DNA from: Hyphomonadaceae bacterium
Lineage (GTDB): Bacteria > Pseudomonadota > Alphaproteobacteria > Caulobacterales > Hyphomonadaceae
Assembly: GCA_022760335.1 (NCBI GenBank)
Contig: JALEGE010000101.1
Span: forward strand, 1-59,625
Direction of reading: 5' to 3'
Length of the DNA: 59,625 nucleotides
Part shown: one piece after another, positions 9,879 through 20,014 of the stretch
How the letters are laid out: every line of letters starts with the position of its first letter
Position numbering within the stretch: the stretch's first letter is position 1
The notes under the pieces: generated by a model
What the model saw: the letters and a program-made list of their open reading frames with translations, nothing else
What the model was told of the DNA's origin: nothing
Databases searched by the model: none
Made by a program: the position numbers and the translations under genes

Positions 9879-10379
9879 ATGAGAGGGGTTGTGATTGCAG
9901 GTCTGCTGGCGCTCGCGGCTTGTGGCGGTAGCGAAGTGGCCGAAGAGATCGAGGCCGACACGCCACCTGTCGAGACCGCCGAAACGCTGGAAGAGACATC
10001 GCCCGGCCCGGCGCCGGAAGAGATCGCCCTTCTGGCCGCGGGGGACTATTGCTATTTCCACGAGGATGAAATCGCCACCGAAGCACTGGAAATCCACGTC
10101 GCCGGGGATGGCAGCATCGCCGGGAGCCATTATGGCGAGGTCCATGACGAGGCAAACGCCTATTTCACCTCCTTTGACACCGCGCTCAGCAATGGCCAAC
10201 CCGGCGCGGACGGCGCCATCGTGTTCCAGACCGTGACCGAAGTGGAAGGTGACACCCAGACCGGCGATCAGATCTGGACCCTCACGCCTGAGGCCGCCTC
10301 CATGGCGGATTTTGACCCCGTCTTCACCCCGGCCGAATGCGATGGCCTGATGAACACGATCTGGCCGCCGATAGAATAG
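9879..10379 (+). CDS. Small acidic lipoprotein
   Basis: 166 residues. The N-terminus MRGVVIAGLLALAAC is a clear type II signal with lipobox LAAC, followed by Gly-Gly and a long Glu/Thr/Pro-rich spacer, so the mature protein is an acylated envelope lipoprotein. The C-terminal half is an unrecognised globular region with GDYCYFHEDE and a second Cys near the end (AECDGLMNTIW), possibly a disulfide. AGGGAG precedes ATG 9879. Confidence 0.75.
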   Translation: MRGVVIAGLLALAACGGSEVAEEIEADTPPVETAETLEETSPGPAPEEIALLAAGDYCYFHEDEIATEALEIHVAGDGSIAGSHYGEVHDEANAYFTSFDTALSNGQPGADGAIVFQTVTEVEGDTQTGDQIWTLTPEAASMADFDPVFTPAECDGLMNTIWPPIE

Positions 10380-10384
10380 CGCGC

Positions 10385-10398
10385 AAACTACGTAGTTT
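10385..10398. repeat. AAACTACGTAGTTT palindrome
   Basis: A perfect 14-bp palindrome lies 5 bases past the lipoprotein stop and about 70 bases before the YdcH-family start. It could be a binding site or a small hairpin. No T-run is present. Confidence 0.3.
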
Positions 10399-10468
10399 CC
10401 GCAATAGGCAAACCGTGCCGGACGCCCAACATGGATGGCCAGATCCAAAAGCCATTGGGAGGCCCGCT

Positions 10469-10708
10469 TTGTCCCACACACCGCATGAACTGGCCGAGGA
10501 ATTTCCCGAATTCGCCGATCAGATCCACGCCCTGAAAACTTCAAACGCGCACTTCGCCCGCCTCGCTGATGAATATCACGGGGTAAACCGCGAGATTCAC
10601 CGCATCGAAACCGACCTGCAGCCAGCAAGTGACGAGGCCCAGACCGATCTGCGAAAACAGCGCATGGTCTTGAAGGATGAACTCTATGCGATGTTGAAAT
10701 CGAGTTAG
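10469..10708 (+). CDS. YdcH/DUF465 family protein (TTG start)
   Basis: 79 residues; begins SHTPHELAEEFPEF, followed by IHALKTSNAHFARLADEYH and a C-terminal coiled coil (DLRKQRMVLKDELYAML), the hallmark of the YdcH/DUF465 family of small cytoplasmic proteins of unknown role. Similarity starts exactly at TTG 10469, which has GGGAGG six bases before it, so a TTG start is preferred to the longer ATG-initiated frame. Its TAG shares bases with the stop of the convergent outer membrane protein. Confidence 0.85.
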   Translation: MSHTPHELAEEFPEFADQIHALKTSNAHFARLADEYHGVNREIHRIETDLQPASDEAQTDLRKQRMVLKDELYAMLKSS

Positions 10709-11322
10709 AACCGGATGCCGACCGCCAGAGCGTATGTGTCAGCCTTCAGTTCGAAACCACCATCGCTTTCGGTGTCATAGCGTGTGTAATCGCCTCGCAG
10801 AAACACGGTATCGGTTGCGTTGACTTCGAAGCCGAGACCAACGCCGAAGCCATTGACGCCGCCTTCTCCCTGGGCCAGCGACTGGCCCGTGAATTGATCG
10901 ACAATGTCGATCTCGATGTCGCCGCCAACAAAGCCACCCTTGGCAAACAGGTGCAACTGGTCGGTCGGGTTGAAGCCGGCACGGCCATACAGGCCGGCAA
11001 GTGTGCCAATCGAAATCGTGTCAGTGGTCAGGAACACATTGTCATCGGCTTCTGCATCCGAGACGCCAACGGCGATATCCATCTCAACGCTGAAAATCGA
11101 GGTGAACTTGTAGCCGTACCGGCCCTGTAGAGCCATGGCATTATACTCGCCATCGGGATTGGACAGTGCATCACCGTCAAACATGACGAAGTTCGCGCCG
11201 GCATCGAAATAGCTCTTCGGCTGAAAGGTCGGCTTGCTCGGCACAGCCGTTTGTGCGCTAGCCGCGCCCGACATTATTGCGGCCGCAGACGCCAGGGCGA
11301 GCGGTGTAAGCTTCAGTTTCAT
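10705..11322 (-). CDS. Outer membrane beta-barrel (porin-like) protein
   Basis: 205 residues. A cleavable signal (MKLKLTPLALASAAAIMSGAASAQ) is followed by alternating strands typical of an 8-strand OmpA/OmpW-like barrel: YFDAGANFVMFDG, YGYKFTSIFSVEMDIAVG, VFLRGDYTRYD and the C-terminal YALAVGIRF, which ends in Phe as needed for BAM-dependent insertion. ATG 11322 has GGGGGAC upstream. The ligand or role is unknown. An AT-richer gap of about 170 bases upstream probably holds its promoter. Confidence 0.85.
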   Translation of the reverse strand: MKLKLTPLALASAAAIMSGAASAQTAVPSKPTFQPKSYFDAGANFVMFDGDALSNPDGEYNAMALQGRYGYKFTSIFSVEMDIAVGVSDAEADDNVFLTTDTISIGTLAGLYGRAGFNPTDQLHLFAKGGFVGGDIEIDIVDQFTGQSLAQGEGGVNGFGVGLGFEVNATDTVFLRGDYTRYDTESDGGFELKADTYALAVGIRF

Positions 11323-11498
11323 TTCAATGTCCCCCAAATACAACATGAGCAGGTCAAACCAGCCACCAACCTGCTTAGAAGTGTAGTATTCGTTTTGTCG
11401 AGCACATTTCGAGTTCTGGTGGAATAACGCCTGCGCGCGTGACTTATATGTCAAAGGTGCGCGGGCTGCGGAGCGAAGCCGCATTTGCTGAAATCGAC

Positions 11499-11975
11499 CT
11501 AATCTGCGCCTGCTTCCGGTCGCGCCGAGAACAGCTCTGCCGCCTCGATCCCGATACCGCCACAGGCCTCATCAAACTCGCTCGGCGCGCCGGACACGCC
11601 CACCCCGCCCAGCGGCGCGCCATCCCCGGTAAAGATCGGCAGGCCGCCCATGAAGGTGGAGATGTGCGGGGCTTCCGGCGCATTCCACTCCGCTGTTTCC
11701 GTCGTCGGGCGCTGATAAAGCGCAGCCGATTTGCCCTTCCACTGGGCGATATCGGCTGCGGCTGGCAGCGTGCCATCCATGCGCGCATACGCCATCATAT
11801 CCCCGGCCTGGTCACACACCGCCACGGCGACCATCTGGCTGTTTTCCTTCGCATGGGAGAGGCACGCATCGCGGATCACCGCCGCCGAGTGCAGGTCCAG
11901 CGTCGGCTGAGGCGTCTGAGCCCCGGCGGCAAAAACGGGCGCGGCGGCGAGCAAGGCCAGTATGGACAGGCGCAT
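11499..11975 (-). CDS. GlcG/HbpS-family heme-binding-like protein, exported
   Basis: 158 residues with a signal peptide (MRLSILALLAAAPVFAAGAQ) and one GlcG/HbpS domain: AVAVCDQAGDMMAYARMDG, WKGKSAALYQRPT, GGLPIFTGDGAPLGGVGVSG, then DEACGGIGIEA. The family includes the heme-binding HbpS and GlcG of glycolate operons; the exported form suggests a periplasmic sensor or binding protein. No glycolate gene is nearby. Confidence 0.85.
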   Translation of the reverse strand: MRLSILALLAAAPVFAAGAQTPQPTLDLHSAAVIRDACLSHAKENSQMVAVAVCDQAGDMMAYARMDGTLPAAADIAQWKGKSAALYQRPTTETAEWNAPEAPHISTFMGGLPIFTGDGAPLGGVGVSGAPSEFDEACGGIGIEAAELFSARPEAGAD

Positions 11976-12124
11976 GGATGGATCCTCCCTTTTCTATCGA
12001 CTACAGCCTTAGTCGCCAGCGCGCCCGGCGCAATGGCCCGGCGGGGCGATCACGCAGATGTCATCTCTGCCAGCAGGCGCGGGCCCGGTCCGGGCCAAAA
12101 GGAAGTGTTGACTGTCGCCTTGGT

Positions 12125-12742
12125 TCAGGGCCCAAGCGCATCGAGCGCCGAAAGCGCCCGCGCCTCCAGATCGCTTGCCGTGGCCGCAAGCAGGTCGCCC
12201 GCTCCCCTGCCCCGCCAGACCGGCCGCGCCAGACTGAACGGATGGGTCCGCCCCAGCCGCCGCGCCCGCATCCGTGCGATCAGGCCGGCAAACCGCCGTG
12301 CGGCCCGGTCTGGATCCTCAAGCAGGGCGCTGAGGGCCGCGAGCCGCTTCAGCAGCGGCGCAGCAGGCTTCGGCGCAGTATTCGGCGACAGATCCTGCCA
12401 CCAGGGCGCGGTGTCTAACGCGGGAAAATCCGCCAGCGGCTCGACCAGCGCAAACCCGCCTGGGGAATGCGTGCGAGCCGCGCTCTTTTCTGGCGGCTGT
12501 GCCCCAGGCCGGGCTGCCGCAGGCGCTGGGCGGGCCGTGGCCAGCGCCGTCATCCGCACCAGCGCGATGAGCAACACCACCCGCCGCGCCGCCGCCTCCA
12601 ACAGGGCAAGCTCCCGCCGCAACCGGTTGAACACATCCCGCCTGACGAAGACCACCCCACCCAACCGGCCGGCAATCGCCACCAGCGACCGGGCCAAAAA
12701 GCCCAACGCCCAGAGAATGGCCGGTTCGGTGTCAGCACGCAT
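12125..12742 (-). CDS. Hypothetical Ala/Arg-rich protein
   Basis: 205 residues, very rich in Ala, Arg and Leu, with an N-terminal hydrophobic stretch (ILWALGFLARSLVAIAGRL) and a Pro/Ala linker near residues 70-95. The C-terminal half is helical (LLKRLAALSALLEDPDRAARR). Family not recognised. The coding strand is supported by its start (ATG 12742) and GC3 pattern only; the opposite strand is also open over much of this region because of high GC. Confidence 0.5.
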   Translation of the reverse strand: MRADTEPAILWALGFLARSLVAIAGRLGGVVFVRRDVFNRLRRELALLEAAARRVVLLIALVRMTALATARPAPAAARPGAQPPEKSAARTHSPGGFALVEPLADFPALDTAPWWQDLSPNTAPKPAAPLLKRLAALSALLEDPDRAARRFAGLIARMRARRLGRTHPFSLARPVWRGRGAGDLLAATASDLEARALSALDALGP

Positions 12743-12787
12743 GGAGGGGAGTGTGACGGGGGCGGCAAGTGGGTCGGATTTCAGCGT

Positions 12788-13102
12788 TCAGGTCAACTCG
12801 ACCAGCGTCTCGCCTGCTTCCAGTGCGGCTTCGATGCTTGGCCAGTGCCGCTCAAAGGCTGCGATCAGGCGCGTATTTGTGACATTGCCGAGCCGGATGA
12901 TCACCGAAGGGGGCGGCCCCTGAGAGGCGAAATCATCATCCTTGGAGAGGATGGTTGCGCCTGTGGTATTCGCCTTCGATGCAATCACCACATCATCGAC
13001 GGCGTCGAGGCCGAGATCCTTTACATGTGTGGCGGAGTGGCCCTGTGCCGTGAGCCAGTCGGCAAGGGCCGGGGGCAGGTTCTGGTCGACCCAGAGGATC
13101 AT
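12788..13102 (-). CDS. DUF5615 PIN-like toxin candidate
   Basis: 104 residues. The start ILWVDQNLPPALADWLTAQGH and the later TILSKDDDFA match DUF5615 (Mut7-C/PIN-like) proteins: Asp-Gln-Asn-Leu/Pro-Pro near the start and Asp-Asp-Asp-Phe in the middle form the predicted acidic metal site of an RNase. These are usually paired with DUF433 proteins, as here, where the upstream gene overlaps by 4 bases (ATGA). Toxin activity is inferred from family and pairing. Confidence 0.85.
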   Translation of the reverse strand: MILWVDQNLPPALADWLTAQGHSATHVKDLGLDAVDDVVIASKANTTGATILSKDDDFASQGPPPSVIIRLGNVTNTRLIAAFERHWPSIEAALEAGETLVELT

Positions 13103-13332
13103 TCCGCGGCGATGACGGTGTGATCCGTGCTCCTGGCGGCATAAAGCAGGGCGGCGGTGATGTCCTCGTCTTCCAGGTATGGGAAGCTCTCAAGGATTTC
13201 GGCGCGCGTTGCCCCGCCGGCGAGATTTTCCAGGATATCCATCACCCGAATACGCATCCCCCGGATACAGGGCCGCCCACCCATCTTGCCGGGCTCGATC
13301 GTGATGCGGGAAAGGAGGGATGTGTCGCTCAT
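13099..13332 (-). CDS. DUF433 antitoxin-like DNA-binding protein
   Basis: 77 residues of the DUF433 family: ITIEPGKMGGRPCIRGMRI, LENLAGGATRAEILESFPYL and ITAALLYAA. These are small HTH proteins that usually act as antitoxin or repressor to a DUF5615 partner. Start ATG 13332 is where similarity begins; the frame is open further upstream through the palindromic repeat. It is the first gene of the two-gene operon. Confidence 0.85.
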   Translation of the reverse strand: MSDTSLLSRITIEPGKMGGRPCIRGMRIRVMDILENLAGGATRAEILESFPYLEDEDITAALLYAARSTDHTVIAAE

Positions 13333-13383
13333 AATGAGAAGGTACGCAGAATGCGGACTTTGGGCTAGCAAATTTGCGATCAG

Positions 13384-13476
13384 CGTAGGGTGCATGGAGG
13401 CCAAAGGCCGATATGCACCATCGTTTCGCGCAGCAAGGATGATTGGTGCATATCGCTCCGCTCCATGCACCCTACG
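13384..13476. repeat. Long two-block palindromic repeat
   Basis: CGTAGGGTGCATGGAG (13384-13399) pairs with CTCCATGCACCCTACG (13461-13476), and CGATATGCACCA (13409-13420) pairs with TGGTGCATATCG (13444-13455), so the whole 93 bases fold into one long interrupted stem. GGTGCAT or its complement occurs four times. This resembles the widespread GTAGGGTG-type REP palindromes of proteobacteria. It stands at the left edge of the AT-richer islet. Confidence 0.8.
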
Positions 13477-13539
13477 GAGCGTAGCGACGTTTGCTTGGTT
13501 CGCCAATTCACCGGCGATAAACGTCGATAACGACTAAAA

Positions 13540-13568
13540 TTGATTTCCCAATAATACTTAGATATAAC
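13540..13568 (+). promoter_or_regulatory. Candidate promoter of the HTH/CHAT operon
   Basis: TTGATT (13540-13545) and TATAAC (13563-13568) are separated by 17 bases in a strongly AT-rich gap. A T-run and a 7-bp inverted repeat (ATCTTCA 13590-13596 / TGAAGAT 13612-13618) follow. This is the best sigma-70-like match in the gap of about 360 bases between DUF433 and the operon; the only other elements there are the repeat and the palindrome listed separately. Confidence 0.4.
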
Positions 13569-13661
13569 ATGTTTTTTTTTGAATCATGCATCTTCAAAAT
13601 GTTATCGATTCTGAAGATTGTGAATTTTGTCTATTGAATTCCGCTCACTGTTCCCCATGTG

Positions 13662-13677
13662 TTCAAAAATTTTTGAA
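13662..13677. promoter_or_regulatory. 16-bp perfect palindrome before the HTH/CHAT operon (candidate operator)
   Basis: TTCAAAAATTTTTGAA is a perfect palindrome ending 14 bases before ATG 13692. Its dyad symmetry suits a dimeric HTH repressor, and the operon it precedes encodes five HTH proteins. Direct binding is inference. Confidence 0.55.
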
Positions 13678-13691
13678 AGCTGGGTGATGAA

Positions 13692-14000
13692 ATGTTCAAC
13701 CAAGAAGTGTTGCTTAAGGCAATCCTTTCAACCGTAGCACGGCAAAGCTTCCCGCCAGGTGAGCTTTACAAGCTAGTTTGCCCCAGAAGCGGCATGGCGA
13801 AGCAAGCAAAGGCATTCAATCTTTGTGATGGCAGTAAGACGCAGTCGGAGATCGCTGATGCTGTGGGGCTCGATAAGGGCAACTTTAGCAAGCAGGTGAA
13901 GCGATGGATCGACGTAGGAATTGTAGTGAAGGTTGCGACTGAAAAAGGTGAACTTCCCTTGCACGTCTACCCGATCCCCGAAACGCAGATCGAGGATTGA
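13692..14000 (+). CDS. Small winged-helix DNA-binding protein
   Basis: 102 residues, one MarR/ArsR-like winged helix. The segment KTQSEIADAVGLDKGNFSKQVKRW is a clear helix-turn-helix with the recognition helix near residues 63-72, followed by the wing (GIVVKVATEKGELPLHVYPI). First gene of a five-gene operon; the next start follows after 2 bases. The base composition is clearly AT-richer than the flanking housekeeping genes. It is probably the regulator acting at the palindrome just upstream. No named family recognised. Confidence 0.75.
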   Translation: MFNQEVLLKAILSTVARQSFPPGELYKLVCPRSGMAKQAKAFNLCDGSKTQSEIADAVGLDKGNFSKQVKRWIDVGIVVKVATEKGELPLHVYPIPETQIED

Positions 14001-14002
14001 GC

Positions 14003-14230
14003 ATGCAATCGGTCAATGATGAAATTCTGAGACGCCTCGACATGCTCGTGCGACTGCAAGCGCAATCTCTCGTGTCGAACTTGGAGAGCCAGAAAGAGAA
14101 AACACTGTTTCTGGCGAAAGCGGGTTTTGAGTCAAAAGAGATAGCGCAGATTTTGGGCACGACGCGCAACACCGTCAGTGTCGCTCTGTCGAATGCCAGA
14201 AAAGCTGGGGAGTTGCCTCCGAATGAGTGA
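14003..14230 (+). CDS. Mini-HTH protein, sigma-region-4-like
   Basis: 75 residues. An N-terminal helix (DEILRRLDMLVRLQAQ) is followed by the trihelical HTH FLAKAGFESKEIAQILGTTR with recognition helix NTVSVALSNARK, the pattern of sigma-70 region 4-like DNA-binding modules. ATG 14003 is 2 bases after the previous stop; a TTG at 13997 also exists in frame. Overlaps the next gene by 8 bases. No enzymatic domain. Confidence 0.75.
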   Translation: MQSVNDEILRRLDMLVRLQAQSLVSNLESQKEKTLFLAKAGFESKEIAQILGTTRNTVSVALSNARKAGELPPNE

Positions 14231-14420
14231 AGAACAATCACCTCGTCCCCAGTCAATGGGAACCGATGCTCTTATAAAGCTGCAAATATTGCAGCTGCTC
14301 CATCAGGGCGTGAAGCAAACCCATATTGCGGCAATGCTTGGCGTTAGCGATGCAACACTCAGCCGAATGATACCGAAAGGGCTAGGTGCCGCAATTCGGA
14401 AGGAACGTAACAATGGCTGA
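14223..14420 (+). CDS. Mini-HTH protein 2
   Basis: 65 residues. Core LIKLQILQLLHQGVKQTHIA leads into an HTH with recognition helix VSDATLSRMIPKG. It is similar in layout to its neighbours on both sides, suggesting tandem duplication and divergence. ATG 14223 overlaps the preceding stop by 8 bases, so translation is probably coupled. It lacks any other domain. Confidence 0.7.
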   Translation: MSEEQSPRPQSMGTDALIKLQILQLLHQGVKQTHIAAMLGVSDATLSRMIPKGLGAAIRKERNNG

Positions 14421-14586
14421 CAAAAGCCTAGAACAGATTTCGAAAGACCTCGAGGCAATTAAGAAGCTTCTCGTTTTCAGACTTATTAGCGAGGGCCACT
14501 CGCAGTCCAAAGTAGCGGCTGCGATAGGCGTGAGTCAGGCAAGCATCAGTCGGATGTTCGCCACCAAAGATAAACAGAAGGAATGA
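14413..14586 (+). CDS. Mini-HTH protein 3
   Basis: 57 residues, the smallest of the three. A Lys-rich amphipathic helix (LEQISKDLEAIKKLLVFRLI) precedes an HTH with recognition helix VSQASISRMF, closest to mini-HTH 2 (shared VS.A..SRM pattern). ATG 14413 overlaps the previous stop by 8 bases, the same geometry as the preceding pair. It is followed by GGGGAGG serving the CHAT gene. Confidence 0.7.
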   Translation: MADKSLEQISKDLEAIKKLLVFRLISEGHSQSKVAAAIGVSQASISRMFATKDKQKE

Positions 14587-14600
14587 TGGGGAGGTAACCG

Positions 14601-15620
14601 ATGAACGCCATCCAAGTGAATGACGCCGCCTCCAACTTTCCTGAGGTTCTGGAGTACTACACCGACTTCATCCGCCGATCGGAGAATTACAAGACGATAT
14701 TCGAGACCGTATACTCAAGCAACAAAACCAAATGGACAGTTGACGAGCTTTCTGAACGTTCTGGTCTAACCCGCAGCGCCACTTCAAAGGCTGCTCGCGC
14801 GATGGCGAATAAGGGTGCGCTTCGACGTATTTCTAGTGGTTCTGGACGACAAACCATCTACGGCAAATCGGAGTTTCCCAGAAACCATGCCGGCGACATC
14901 AGGCGCGATATCAACCGATCAAAAGCAGAGTCTTCGCGCCCCACTAAGAGGTCGCCTCAAGTGACCGCTACATCGAACTCTAAGCGATCCGCTCGACAAT
15001 CAAACTCACAAAAAGCAGGCCGTCAGTGCAATGTTCTTTATCTAACGGCGAGTCCCGCAACATCAACTCGACTGCGCGTGGACAAAGAGATCTCACATGT
15101 TCAGGAACACATTCAACGTTCGAAGTATCGAGACCAAATTAACGTGCATGCGCGCCCCGCGGCCAGCGCAAAAAATCTCGTCGAGGGTCTAAATGATCTT
15201 CGACCCAACATTGTACATTTTTCAGGTCATGCCGACGTCGACGGCATTGAGCTCGACACGACCGACATTGCGAATGATGGCGGAAAATTCCTTTCGTTCG
15301 ACCTATTCAGAGACGTGCTGAGAGGGACGTCCACACCTCCATCTCTAGTAATCCTCAACGGCTGCAATACTGGGGGAGGAGTGAAAGCGCTACTGGAAGT
15401 AGTGCCCGCAGTCATTTCTATGAACGACTCAGTTGGCGACACCGAAGCAATAGTTTTTGCCGCTAGCTTCTACGCCGCGATTGGCGCAAAGCAGCCGCTC
15501 GACAAGTGTTTCGAGCAAGGAGTGACTGGTCTGAAACTTGTCGGTTCAGCCGATTCTCACATTCCACAGTTAGATTTAGCTACGGGCACAAAAGCCGCCA
15601 ACATCAAGCTTATTGGCTAA
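14601..15620 (+). CDS. Winged-helix/CHAT caspase-like protease fusion
   Basis: 339 residues. Residues 30-90 form a winged HTH (WTVDELSERSGLTRSATSKA, then a wing GSGRQTIYGKS). Residues 95-140 are a Ser/Arg/Lys-rich disordered linker. Residues 141-339 match a CHAT (caspase HetF-associated TPR-type) peptidase domain: VLYLTASP first strand, NIVHFSGHA with predicted catalytic His210, and SLVILNGCNTG with predicted catalytic Cys255, then VISMNDSVGD and a final LVGS. Usual CHAT proteins have sensor repeats; here a DNA-binding domain replaces them. Last gene of the operon, with GGGGAGG before ATG, and its stop lies 3 bases from the convergent thiC stop. Substrate and trigger unknown; a DNA-bound protease acting in defence or cell death is inference. 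Confidence 0.8.
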   Translation: MNAIQVNDAASNFPEVLEYYTDFIRRSENYKTIFETVYSSNKTKWTVDELSERSGLTRSATSKAARAMANKGALRRISSGSGRQTIYGKSEFPRNHAGDIRRDINRSKAESSRPTKRSPQVTATSNSKRSARQSNSQKAGRQCNVLYLTASPATSTRLRVDKEISHVQEHIQRSKYRDQINVHARPAASAKNLVEGLNDLRPNIVHFSGHADVDGIELDTTDIANDGGKFLSFDLFRDVLRGTSTPPSLVILNGCNTGGGVKALLEVVPAVISMNDSVGDTEAIVFAASFYAAIGAKQPLDKCFEQGVTGLKLVGSADSHIPQLDLATGTKAANIKLIG

Positions 15621-15623
15621 ACC

Positions 15624-17920
<2,297 letters not shown>

Positions 17921-17927
17921 AGCTGCC

Positions 17928-18296
17928 TCACGCTTCCGGCAGGAAGCCGAGTTCCCGCTGTTTTTTCTTGCTGAAGCCCGCCGCGACAAGGGCGTGGCTG
18001 CCGGCGATGTAGGATTTCAGCTCGTCATCACTAAGCGTCTCGTCGCTGAACCATTGGATCCAGCTCATCCCGCGCGAGGCCAGATGCGGCGCGCCGCGCA
18101 GGCCGGCTTGGGTTTTCATGATCTCAAAGCTCATGGGGCTGACCTTGAAGGAACAGCGCGCAAGCGCCTCGCCCTCCAGCCCCCCAATCGCGTAGACCTT
18201 GCCGGCCACCTTCCAGACATGACTATCACCCCATTGTACCACATGGTGGCTGTGGGGCAGGGACTCGCAGAAGGAATTGTATTCTGTCAGCGTCAA
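17928..18296 (-). CDS. MmcQ/YjbR family protein (TTG start)
   Basis: 122 residues of the MmcQ/YjbR (DUF419) family: CESLPHSHHVVQWGDSHVWKV, KVYAIGG, CSFKVSP and the C-terminal SKKKQRELG. These are small CyaY-like DNA-binding-like domains of unknown role. The start is TTG 18296, placed 7 bases after GGAG; no ATG lies in frame upstream before the riboswitch. First gene behind the TPP riboswitch, so its initiation region is the probable switch output. Confidence 0.82.
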   Translation of the reverse strand: MTLTEYNSFCESLPHSHHVVQWGDSHVWKVAGKVYAIGGLEGEALARCSFKVSPMSFEIMKTQAGLRGAPHLASRGMSWIQWFSDETLSDDELKSYIAGSHALVAAGFSKKKQRELGFLPEA

Positions 18297-18305
18297 TTCT
18301 TCACT

Positions 18306-18395
18306 CCGTTCCTACGCCGGTTTGATCCGGATCAGGTTCAAAGGGTGCTCGCTCGGTGACAGAGCGATCTCAGCGCTTCCAGACGCGCCCCTCGG
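18306..18395 (-). ncRNA. TPP riboswitch (THI element)
   Basis: Read on the minus strand, the conserved THI blocks are present in order: GAGGGGCGC at the 5' end, GCTGAGAT, ACCCTTTGAACCTGATC, and CCGGCGTAGGAA at the 3' end closing helix P1. It ends about 10 bases before the Shine-Dalgarno and TTG start of the MmcQ-like gene. No terminator hairpin with a T-run is visible, so control is probably at translation start through occlusion of GGAG. Confidence 0.95.
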
Positions 18396-18529
18396 ATTTG
18401 TATTACCTTAGGAGATATTCGCGCGGCTTCCTAGGGGGCTTATCCGGCGCGCGTTTCGCGGCTTTCAAAGGCGGCAAAGATTGAAGCGCGTGCGCAATCA
18501 TTGGAAAAGAGTGGTGGGAGGAAATCGAG

Positions 18530-18922
18530 ATGACACAATTTGAAGCGGCGACACTTTATGCCGGCCTGCTGGTGCTTTTGCTGTTGGCCTTGAAGGTGAA
18601 TACCGGGCGCGCGCGGGGCGGTGCAAAGATCACGATCGGCGATGGTGGCAATGACAGTCTCATTCGCGCCATGCGCACCCATGCCAATGCGGTGGAGGAT
18701 GTACCGATCACCCTGATCGGGATCTTCGCGTTGGCCGGGCTCAGCGCACCGCTGGCCCTGATCCATGCTCTGGGTGCCAGCCTGGTGGTGACGCGTCTGC
18801 TGCATGCCCTTGGTCTTGGTCGAAATTCCGGCACCAGTTTCGGACGCTTTGCCGGCACGCTGGGCACATTGCTGGTCATGCTGGTGACGGCAGGGGCGTG
18901 TCTCTGGTTTGCTCTGATGTGA
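18530..18922 (+). CDS. MAPEG-family membrane protein
   Basis: 130 residues with four hydrophobic helices. LYAGLLVLLLLALKVNTGRARGG, the RAMRTHANAVEDVPITLIGI block and GRNSGTSFGR fit the MAPEG family (microsomal glutathione transferase-like; eicosanoid and glutathione metabolism in eukaryotes). Bacterial role uncertain, perhaps conjugation of electrophiles at the inner membrane. GGGAGG precedes ATG. Confidence 0.88.
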   Translation: MTQFEAATLYAGLLVLLLLALKVNTGRARGGAKITIGDGGNDSLIRAMRTHANAVEDVPITLIGIFALAGLSAPLALIHALGASLVVTRLLHALGLGRNSGTSFGRFAGTLGTLLVMLVTAGACLWFALM

Positions 18923-18929
18923 GACCGGT

Positions 18930-19361
18930 TCAGAAAGGCAGGGGCGCGAGATCTGGCGCGACCCAGTCGCGGCGGGCTTCGGGCGAGAACAGGCAGTCCT
19001 TCGACCAGTAGTCCAGCAGCCAGCCCGGCGCGCCGCAGGGTCCGGTGAGCAGCGTTTCGAGTGTCACGACCAGGGGTGTGCCCTGTGCGGCGGTTTTCAA
19101 CGCCGCGTCGGCCGCGCGCAGGGAGGCCTGGGTGATGGTCTCGTGATAGCCTTCCGTGTCGGTGTTCTGCCCGCCCTTGGCCTCGTTATAACTGCGGATC
19201 ATTCCGGGCATCTCGGTATAGGTCGCGGCGCCGCGTGTGGAGAGCAGCCACAGTGCGGTGGCGAAATGGGCTGCATGGGTCCAGCTTTCCTTGGGCAGAG
19301 AGTGATCGAGAAAGCCCTCGGCAAGGCGGGCGATTTCAGCGTCTGAAGCATAGTGGGGCAT
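18930..19361 (-). CDS. Hypothetical soluble protein
   Basis: 143 residues, helical, with SLPKESWTHAAHFATALWLL, PGMIRSYNEAKGGQNTDTEG and a C-terminal WSKDCLFSPEARRDWV. I do not know a family name, but the conserved-looking W-x-H-xx-H region suggests a helical metal or ligand site. ATG 19361 (AGGAC nearby) is preferred to ATG 19391, whose upstream AGAGG lies too close. Confidence 0.6.
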   Translation of the reverse strand: MPHYASDAEIARLAEGFLDHSLPKESWTHAAHFATALWLLSTRGAATYTEMPGMIRSYNEAKGGQNTDTEGYHETITQASLRAADAALKTAAQGTPLVVTLETLLTGPCGAPGWLLDYWSKDCLFSPEARRDWVAPDLAPLPF

Positions 19362-19414
19362 GGGATCGGTCCTGTTGGGGGCGATGGACATAGCCTCTGA
19401 ATGCGTTCGGCGCT

Positions 19415-20014
19415 ATGGCGAGTTTCATGAGTGATACCGTTGAGCTTTCCGCGCCGGGTCTTTTCCTTGGTGATGTCAGCCTGTCCCACCCCGTGGAGGC
19501 AGACCGGGAAGAAGTGCGCCGCGCTGCAGACAGCTCCGAAACCTGGACCTGGTACACCTATCGCGCAGATGGCGCGCATTTCGAGACATTCTGGCCGCGC
19601 TTTGTCGATGAACACTGCCCGCCTGATGAGGTGCATCATGTGGTGCGCTGGCGCGGCGAAGTGGTTGGCGCGACCTGTTTCCTGGCGGTGGATACACGCC
19701 ACAAGCGGGTGGAGATTGGCGGCACCTGGTACAGTGCGGCTGCGCGCGGCACGAAGGTCAATCCGGCCTGCAAGTATTTGCTCTTGCAGCGCGCTTTTGA
19801 CTGGGGCGCCCGGCGGGTCGAGATCAAGACCGACAGCAAGAATGCCCGCTCGCGCGCCGCGATCGAGAAGCTGGGTGCGCGGTTTGAGGGCACGCTGCGC
19901 AATCACATGCTGCTGCATGACGGGCGCTCGCGCGACACAGTGTATTATTCCGTAATCCCGGAGGATTGGCCGGCAATTCAGGCCAGACTGGCCCGGCGCC
20001 TGAAGCTAGACTAG
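19415..20014 (+). CDS. GNAT-family N-acetyltransferase (RimJ/RimL-like)
   Basis: 199 residues. The C-terminal half carries the acetyl-CoA fold: VEIGGTWYSAAARGTKVNPACK (strand 4 and P-loop), ARRVEIKTDSKNARSRAAIEKLGA (RimL signature) and EGTLRNHMLLHDGRSRDTVYYS. It resembles small-molecule or ribosomal-protein Ser/Ala N-acetyltransferases. The start could be ATG 19415 or ATG 19427. Its 3' end overlaps the convergent ArsC-like gene by 9 bases. Confidence 0.85.
   Translation: MASFMSDTVELSAPGLFLGDVSLSHPVEADREEVRRAADSSETWTWYTYRADGAHFETFWPRFVDEHCPPDEVHHVVRWRGEVVGATCFLAVDTRHKRVEIGGTWYSAAARGTKVNPACKYLLLQRAFDWGARRVEIKTDSKNARSRAAIEKLGARFEGTLRNHMLLHDGRSRDTVYYSVIPEDWPAIQARLARRLKLD

Follow-up and report, generated by a model that had tools for sequence, protein, structure and literature searches.

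Why should a predicted protease gene close a row of four tiny HTH genes, and what could such an arrangement do? We asked this of a locus in a 59,625-nucleotide stretch of DNA from a Hyphomonadaceae bacterium (contig JALEGE010000101.1), referred to here as the window. A sequence-only reading had described five packed HTH and CHAT genes in an AT-richer islet at 13510-15620. All five open reading frames are present, with overlaps or with gaps of at most 14 bases; the unit of gain or loss had to be corrected to about 13496-15625 by comparison with a congener that lacks the islet. The features are as follows.

about 13496-15625, plus strand: the islet, gained or lost as one unit; a genome of the same genus lacks it
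13508-13691, plus strand: AT-rich leader (33% GC) that contains inverted repeats, a candidate promoter/operator
13692-14000, plus strand: gene A, MarR-like winged helix, 102 aa (ORF call and Pfam)
14003-14230, plus strand: gene B, sigma-70 region-4-like HTH with an N-terminal helix, 75 aa (ORF call and Pfam)
14223-14420, plus strand: gene C, mini-HTH (HTH_23/TrpR/KorA-like), 65 aa (ORF call and Pfam)
14413-14586, plus strand: gene D, mini-HTH, 57 aa, paralogue of C (ORF call and Pfam)
14601-15620, plus strand: gene E, winged helix plus CHAT, 339 aa (ORF call, Pfam and structure model)
14601-14963, plus strand: N-terminal adaptor of gene E, winged helix plus PTKR motif, also present in a non-CHAT effector
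15024-15620, plus strand: C-terminal CHAT peptidase domain of gene E (H210 in HFSGH, C255 in LNGC)

Two bases separate A from B, the B/C and C/D overlaps measure 8 bases each, and D and E are 14 bases apart, with GGAGG preceding gene E. The islet is indeed AT-richer than its surroundings: the GC content of 13496-15625 is 0.494 versus 0.611 for the window, and no sampled 2.1-kb stretch is lower.

Gene E carries the putative enzyme. Residues 122-305 match CHAT in Pfam (7.4e-12; 45.7 bits against a curated cut-off of 24), and four other operon CHATs score 46-53 bits against PF12770. An AlphaFold2 model of E is confident except for residues 1-12 and a disordered linker (111-136), with pLDDT >90 over most of 143-339. 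By sequence profile as well as by structure, the nearest solved relative of the CHAT part is the activated SAVED-CHAT filament 8tl0 (hmmsearch E 8.8e-35; Foldseek 4e-16; VIA Z 26.2 with an rmsd of 2.0 over 194 residues for the model), well ahead of caspases (Z about 14) and gingipain. As seen in caspases, H210 and C255 each come directly after a strand (204-209 and 249-253, respectively). They align by sequence index with His355 and Cys402 of 8tl0, and are invariant in the operon CHATs aligned and in a wider CHAT alignment. Based on Pfam and the model, we are confident that the C-terminus of E is a CHAT domain with a caspase-like fold and a predicted His-Cys dyad. The earlier proposal of a CHAT protease with a likely His210/Cys255 dyad is borne out to this extent, and the region folds in the model as CHAT rather than as another family.

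Towards the N-terminus, residues 46-83 give a sub-threshold match to a MarR-like wHTH (3.4e-4, Pfam), and the structures that Foldseek matched to E include MarR-type and TubR ones. From the modelled fold it is possible that the protease is placed on DNA by its winged helix; winged helices bind proteins too. We do not claim that gene A and the N-terminal part of E are paralogues, as the similarity of their profiles is weak.

The four small proteins each resemble HTH families in Pfam: A matches MarR_2 (2.5e-5, just below the gathering cut-off), B Sigma70_r4_2 (5.8e-7), C HTH_23 (6.7e-7) and D HTH_3 (6.6e-5). B is profile kin of the C/D family (hhalign 96%, E 2.6e-9), and they follow a common plan of an N-terminal helical stretch and then the HTH. 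Pfam did not reveal a full sigma-70 factor in gene B, whose 75 aa give a region-4 HTH match only, without region 2. Ahead of A, the leader contains the inverted repeats ATCTTCAAAATGTTATCGATTCTGAAGAT and TTCAAAAATTTTTGAA (shuffle test 49/1000 and 3/1000, respectively). No sigma-70-like site was found in 13508-13691, and promoter and terminator scans returned no more matches than in shuffles. Self-regulation, as proposed from sequence at first, loses ground here, as the window's palindromes are not conserved among the upstream regions of relatives; as operators they are suggestive at best.

Is the arrangement more than chance? Searches with A, E or the E adaptor added seven complete operons with this gene order to that of the window, each in a different genome, so that there are eight in all. 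Seven of the eight hosts are alphaproteobacterial and one is a MAG labelled Nitrospinaceae. The operons outside the window are:

L002/L019: MAG alphaproteobacterium
L016: Brevundimonas denitrificans, with a second B gene
L017: MAG labelled Nitrospinaceae
L018: Mesorhizobium B4-1-3
L013/L021: Mesorhizobium loti LU
L094 and L095: two genomes of the order sampled around G653

The order of A, B, mini-HTHs and adaptor-effector is constant in all eight, so that the layout first read from one genome does recur, with a mini-HTH number of one (L095), two (window, L016, L017, L018) or three (L019, L021, L094). The taxon label of L017 may be a binning error, given its 3.9-kb MAG contig and its closeness to L019 (their A proteins are 75% identical). 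The system is rare: it was found in at least 2 of 146 Mesorhizobium genomes, in at least 3 of 279 genomes of the order of G653 and in at least 2 credible cases among 385 genomes of the class sample (where a weak A-like match in G401, 5.5e-4, was left out), all lower bounds because the genome-wide scan used narrow patterns. Among 101 relatives of the window, the window genome itself alone carries it. A Rhodospirillaceae MAG (L022; 5512-6150 and 4243-5142) has a truncated A and a pair of B-like genes, in reversed order, beside a divergent trypsin-like protease gene; it may be a relic or an alternative arrangement of the operon's kit.

In two species pairs, A-D differ far less at nonsynonymous than at synonymous sites, and so does E in the one pair compared; the tiny ORFs are thus real genes. 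This strong purifying selection and the recurrence of the same order in seven other genomes indicate that the operon is more than chance. The same result bears on the idea that the locus is what is left of a mobile element, either decayed or purely regulatory, and that the CHAT protein is a passenger on it. While such a remnant would account for the low GC and the site variability, every gene tested is under strong purifying selection, the dyad is intact in the CHAT copies and, when the ORFs of the islet were read, neither a transposase nor an integrase was seen among them; we consider a remnant very improbable.

The last genes of all eight operons start with the same winged-helix/PTKR region, but only six end with CHAT; the other two (M. 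loti LU and G1071) end with an unrelated domain. This second type of C-terminal domain has the invariant motifs KDWGGE-x2-D, KGP, G-x-NGDQ and QH, and it also forms the C-terminus of proteins that differ in the rest of their sequence, on plasmids of Gordonia and Rhodococcus and on a viral contig. Pfam and PDB searches gave no usable match for it, and its predicted fold reached a pLDDT of 31. Its conserved E, D, K and Q are a hint of a PD-(D/E)XK-kind nuclease, with a D/ExK motif that is atypical. We therefore call the domain a putative effector.

The two Mesorhizobium operons, one with CHAT (B4-1-3) and one with the KDWGGE domain (M. loti LU), abut lepA at one site. Their DNA is 86% identical on the lepA side and 69% identical over C-D, and their last genes differ. 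In Mesorhizobium G873, a close relative, this site is empty: lepA and the far-side gene are present with 88 bp in place of the 2.6 kb of M. loti LU. Correspondingly, in the congener G001 (L074) the match to the window breaks off after 13495 and resumes at 15626; an unrelated 568 bp fill the interval, flanked by the DUF433/DUF5615 pair and thiC, both of which G001 keeps. Judged from these sequences, the thiC site in the window's genus is evidently a second empty or alternative site. The swap at the lepA site and the empty or alternative sites in relatives indicate that the cassette comes and goes as a unit and that its last domain is exchangeable. The C-terminus of the last gene is evidently open to at least two domains that replace each other, the protease being just one of them, a point that the sequence-only reading had missed. 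Whether the six CHATs were captured once is a separate matter: as one clade the operon CHATs received an AU p of 0.11 in the tree, so a single origin and repeated capture are both possible.

Three further observations concern the surroundings of the thiC site. The unrelated short sequence in G001 (L074, 933-1500) has a membrane-protein-like reading on the minus strand, and the slot beside thiC may therefore be a small variable site. Within the window, 13381-13495 holds a palindromic repeat (GGTGCATATCG / CGATATGCACC), and the congeners L071 and L074 carry similar copies (two in L074); from its sequence the repeat looks like a member of a dispersed family, and it ends at the islet boundary. The DUF433/DUF5615 (PIN-like) pair at 12788-13335 on the minus strand adjoins the islet, and DUF433 of G001 is 97% identical. 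Such a pair is a typical toxin-antitoxin-like arrangement.

Exchange of the last domain is key for a second alternative, a proteolytic transcription switch. Here, E would cleave one of the HTH proteins A-D and thereby relieve repression or release a sigma-4-like activator, with gene expression as the output. CalpL/CalpT/CalpS and CapP/CapH act as switches of this type. The operon consists mostly of HTH proteins, B resembles sigma region 4, and there are known protease cascades with a sigma factor as their last step (PMC11229360). However, two operons keep the HTH genes with an unrelated domain in place of the protease, which would be intolerable unless that domain also removes the repressor, and B has just 75 aa without sigma region 2. 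Weakened by the replacement of the protease, the switch seems unlikely to us.

The empty sites would suit a third alternative, a toxin-antitoxin-like addiction cassette in which E is the toxin and one or several HTH proteins serve as antitoxin and autorepressor, so that the cassette spreads by addiction and not by immunity. Small HTH genes before a larger enzyme, overlapping genes, sporadic islets and the palindromes ahead of A in the window would all be expected of it. But type II modules do not usually comprise as many as four genes or more, one to three of them for mini-HTHs, and the operons are mostly chromosomal and lie beside housekeeping genes, while plasmids gave a marginal match to A and none to B. 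We regard an addiction cassette as doubtful, and this reading overlaps with that of an effector module, which we prefer.

The wider context was analysed as well. The operons are flanked by thiC with the DUF433/DUF5615 pair, by lepA, or by rpsB-tsf/dnaE (the last identified by eye). Enrichment in defence islands had been suggested as a check; no such setting is demonstrated in the flanks read, where the neighbours are housekeeping genes and one DUF433/DUF5615 pair. Neither cyclase nor CRISPR genes were seen in 10000-19500 of the window or around the other operons (by eye and with a partial Pfam scan). Phage records contained no close relatives of E, viral contigs yielded none when searched with E alone and no match when searched with alignments of A and B, and the N-terminal adaptor alone gave no credible match on plasmids.

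What, then, does the islet do? We believe about as much as we doubt that the islet is an effector module, compact and spread by horizontal transfer, in which A-D exert control and a winged-helix adaptor couples a latent enzyme. The proteins A-D would be control parts that act by binding DNA or by HTH-mediated binding of proteins, and the N-terminal helices of the mini-HTHs probably allow mixed oligomers. The winged-helix adaptor of E would link the latent enzyme to this control assembly, which would keep the effector inactive and repress the operon. If the assembly were disturbed, most likely by an invading element, the effector would be freed or clustered and could then cleave the HTH partners and/or cell proteins, and growth would stop. 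It is the modularity that we argue for most strongly, given the constant control part, the variable enzyme part and the patchy distribution. Inhibition or sensing by the control parts, the trigger, the substrate and an outcome in defence or addiction are proposals. Conflict systems typically show constant control together with a variable enzyme and patchy spread, and a role of CHAT as an immune effector is well established; we infer that a conflict role (defence, abortive or addiction) fits best. At about 2 kb, the unit is small enough for direct testing.

How does the operon compare with known systems? PADLOC 2.0 gave no whole-system match; A, B, C and E each matched its models weakly and in part, D not at all, and a partial match to SAVED_CHAT was obtained in relatives only. 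No model in Pfam, NCBIfam or PADLOC covers the whole system, and no paper with this layout was found among open-licence papers, in agreement with the first impression that no named system has it. Tentatively, and with more doubt than belief, we suggest that the operons could form an undescribed modular class of immune or conflict systems, in which the variable mini-HTH set would be the sensor (a DNA- or polymerase-reading array) and a common winged-helix adaptor would couple it to interchangeable enzymes, be it the caspase-like protease or a different effector.

The SAVED-CHAT proteins of type III CRISPR and CBASS (PDB 8tl0) resemble E in CHAT sequence and fold, in the aligned His and Cys and in the C-terminal position of the effector. 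However, their N-terminus is a cyclic-nucleotide-binding SAVED domain, whereas residues 1-110 of E form a winged helix according to Pfam and the model, and neither Pfam nor PADLOC reported a SAVED match for E. In addition, E is adjoined by HTH genes, and CRISPR or CBASS genes were not seen next to it. The closest CHATs outside the operons (35-44% identity) belong to coiled-coil-CHAT plasmid proteins of Agrobacterium, Sphingomonas, Curtobacterium and Cytobacillus, which the tree does not resolve from the operon CHATs. Yet these are single-gene proteins with a long coiled-coil N-terminus and without A-D, and the orphan plasmid genes were for that reason ruled out as operon copies. Other plasmid-borne CHATs were noted along the way: 14 Staphylococcus plasmid records contain a CHAT gene apparently without an N-terminus (L009, 4001-4522), and on Ti plasmids three CHAT proteins are clustered with winged-helix, TIR, caspase and metallophosphoesterase genes (L004, 1-8498, Agrobacterium pTi).

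The protease of CapH/CapP is a metallopeptidase and a separate regulator. Unlike E, it is not fused to an adaptor at the end of the operon. In CapK/CapS (PMC13373217), as in CapH/CapP, an HTH repressor and a partner protein control an immune operon, but the CBASS, kinase and WYL genes are absent here. That CHAT proteases can serve as immune effectors is known (PMC11229360, PMC10952713), and in Craspase the CHAT protease effector TPR-CHAT (Csx29) is held by a partner until triggered (PMC9729208). There, however, TPR takes the place of the wHTH, and Cas7-11 and crRNA are needed, both of which are absent next to the operon. To our knowledge, RNA-guided complexes or cyclic nucleotides trigger those CHAT proteases that have so far been characterised in bacterial immunity. 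Coupling of such a protease to tiny DNA-binding proteins, and its replacement by another domain at one chromosomal site, would indicate a different trigger of the bacterial response, possibly cell death.
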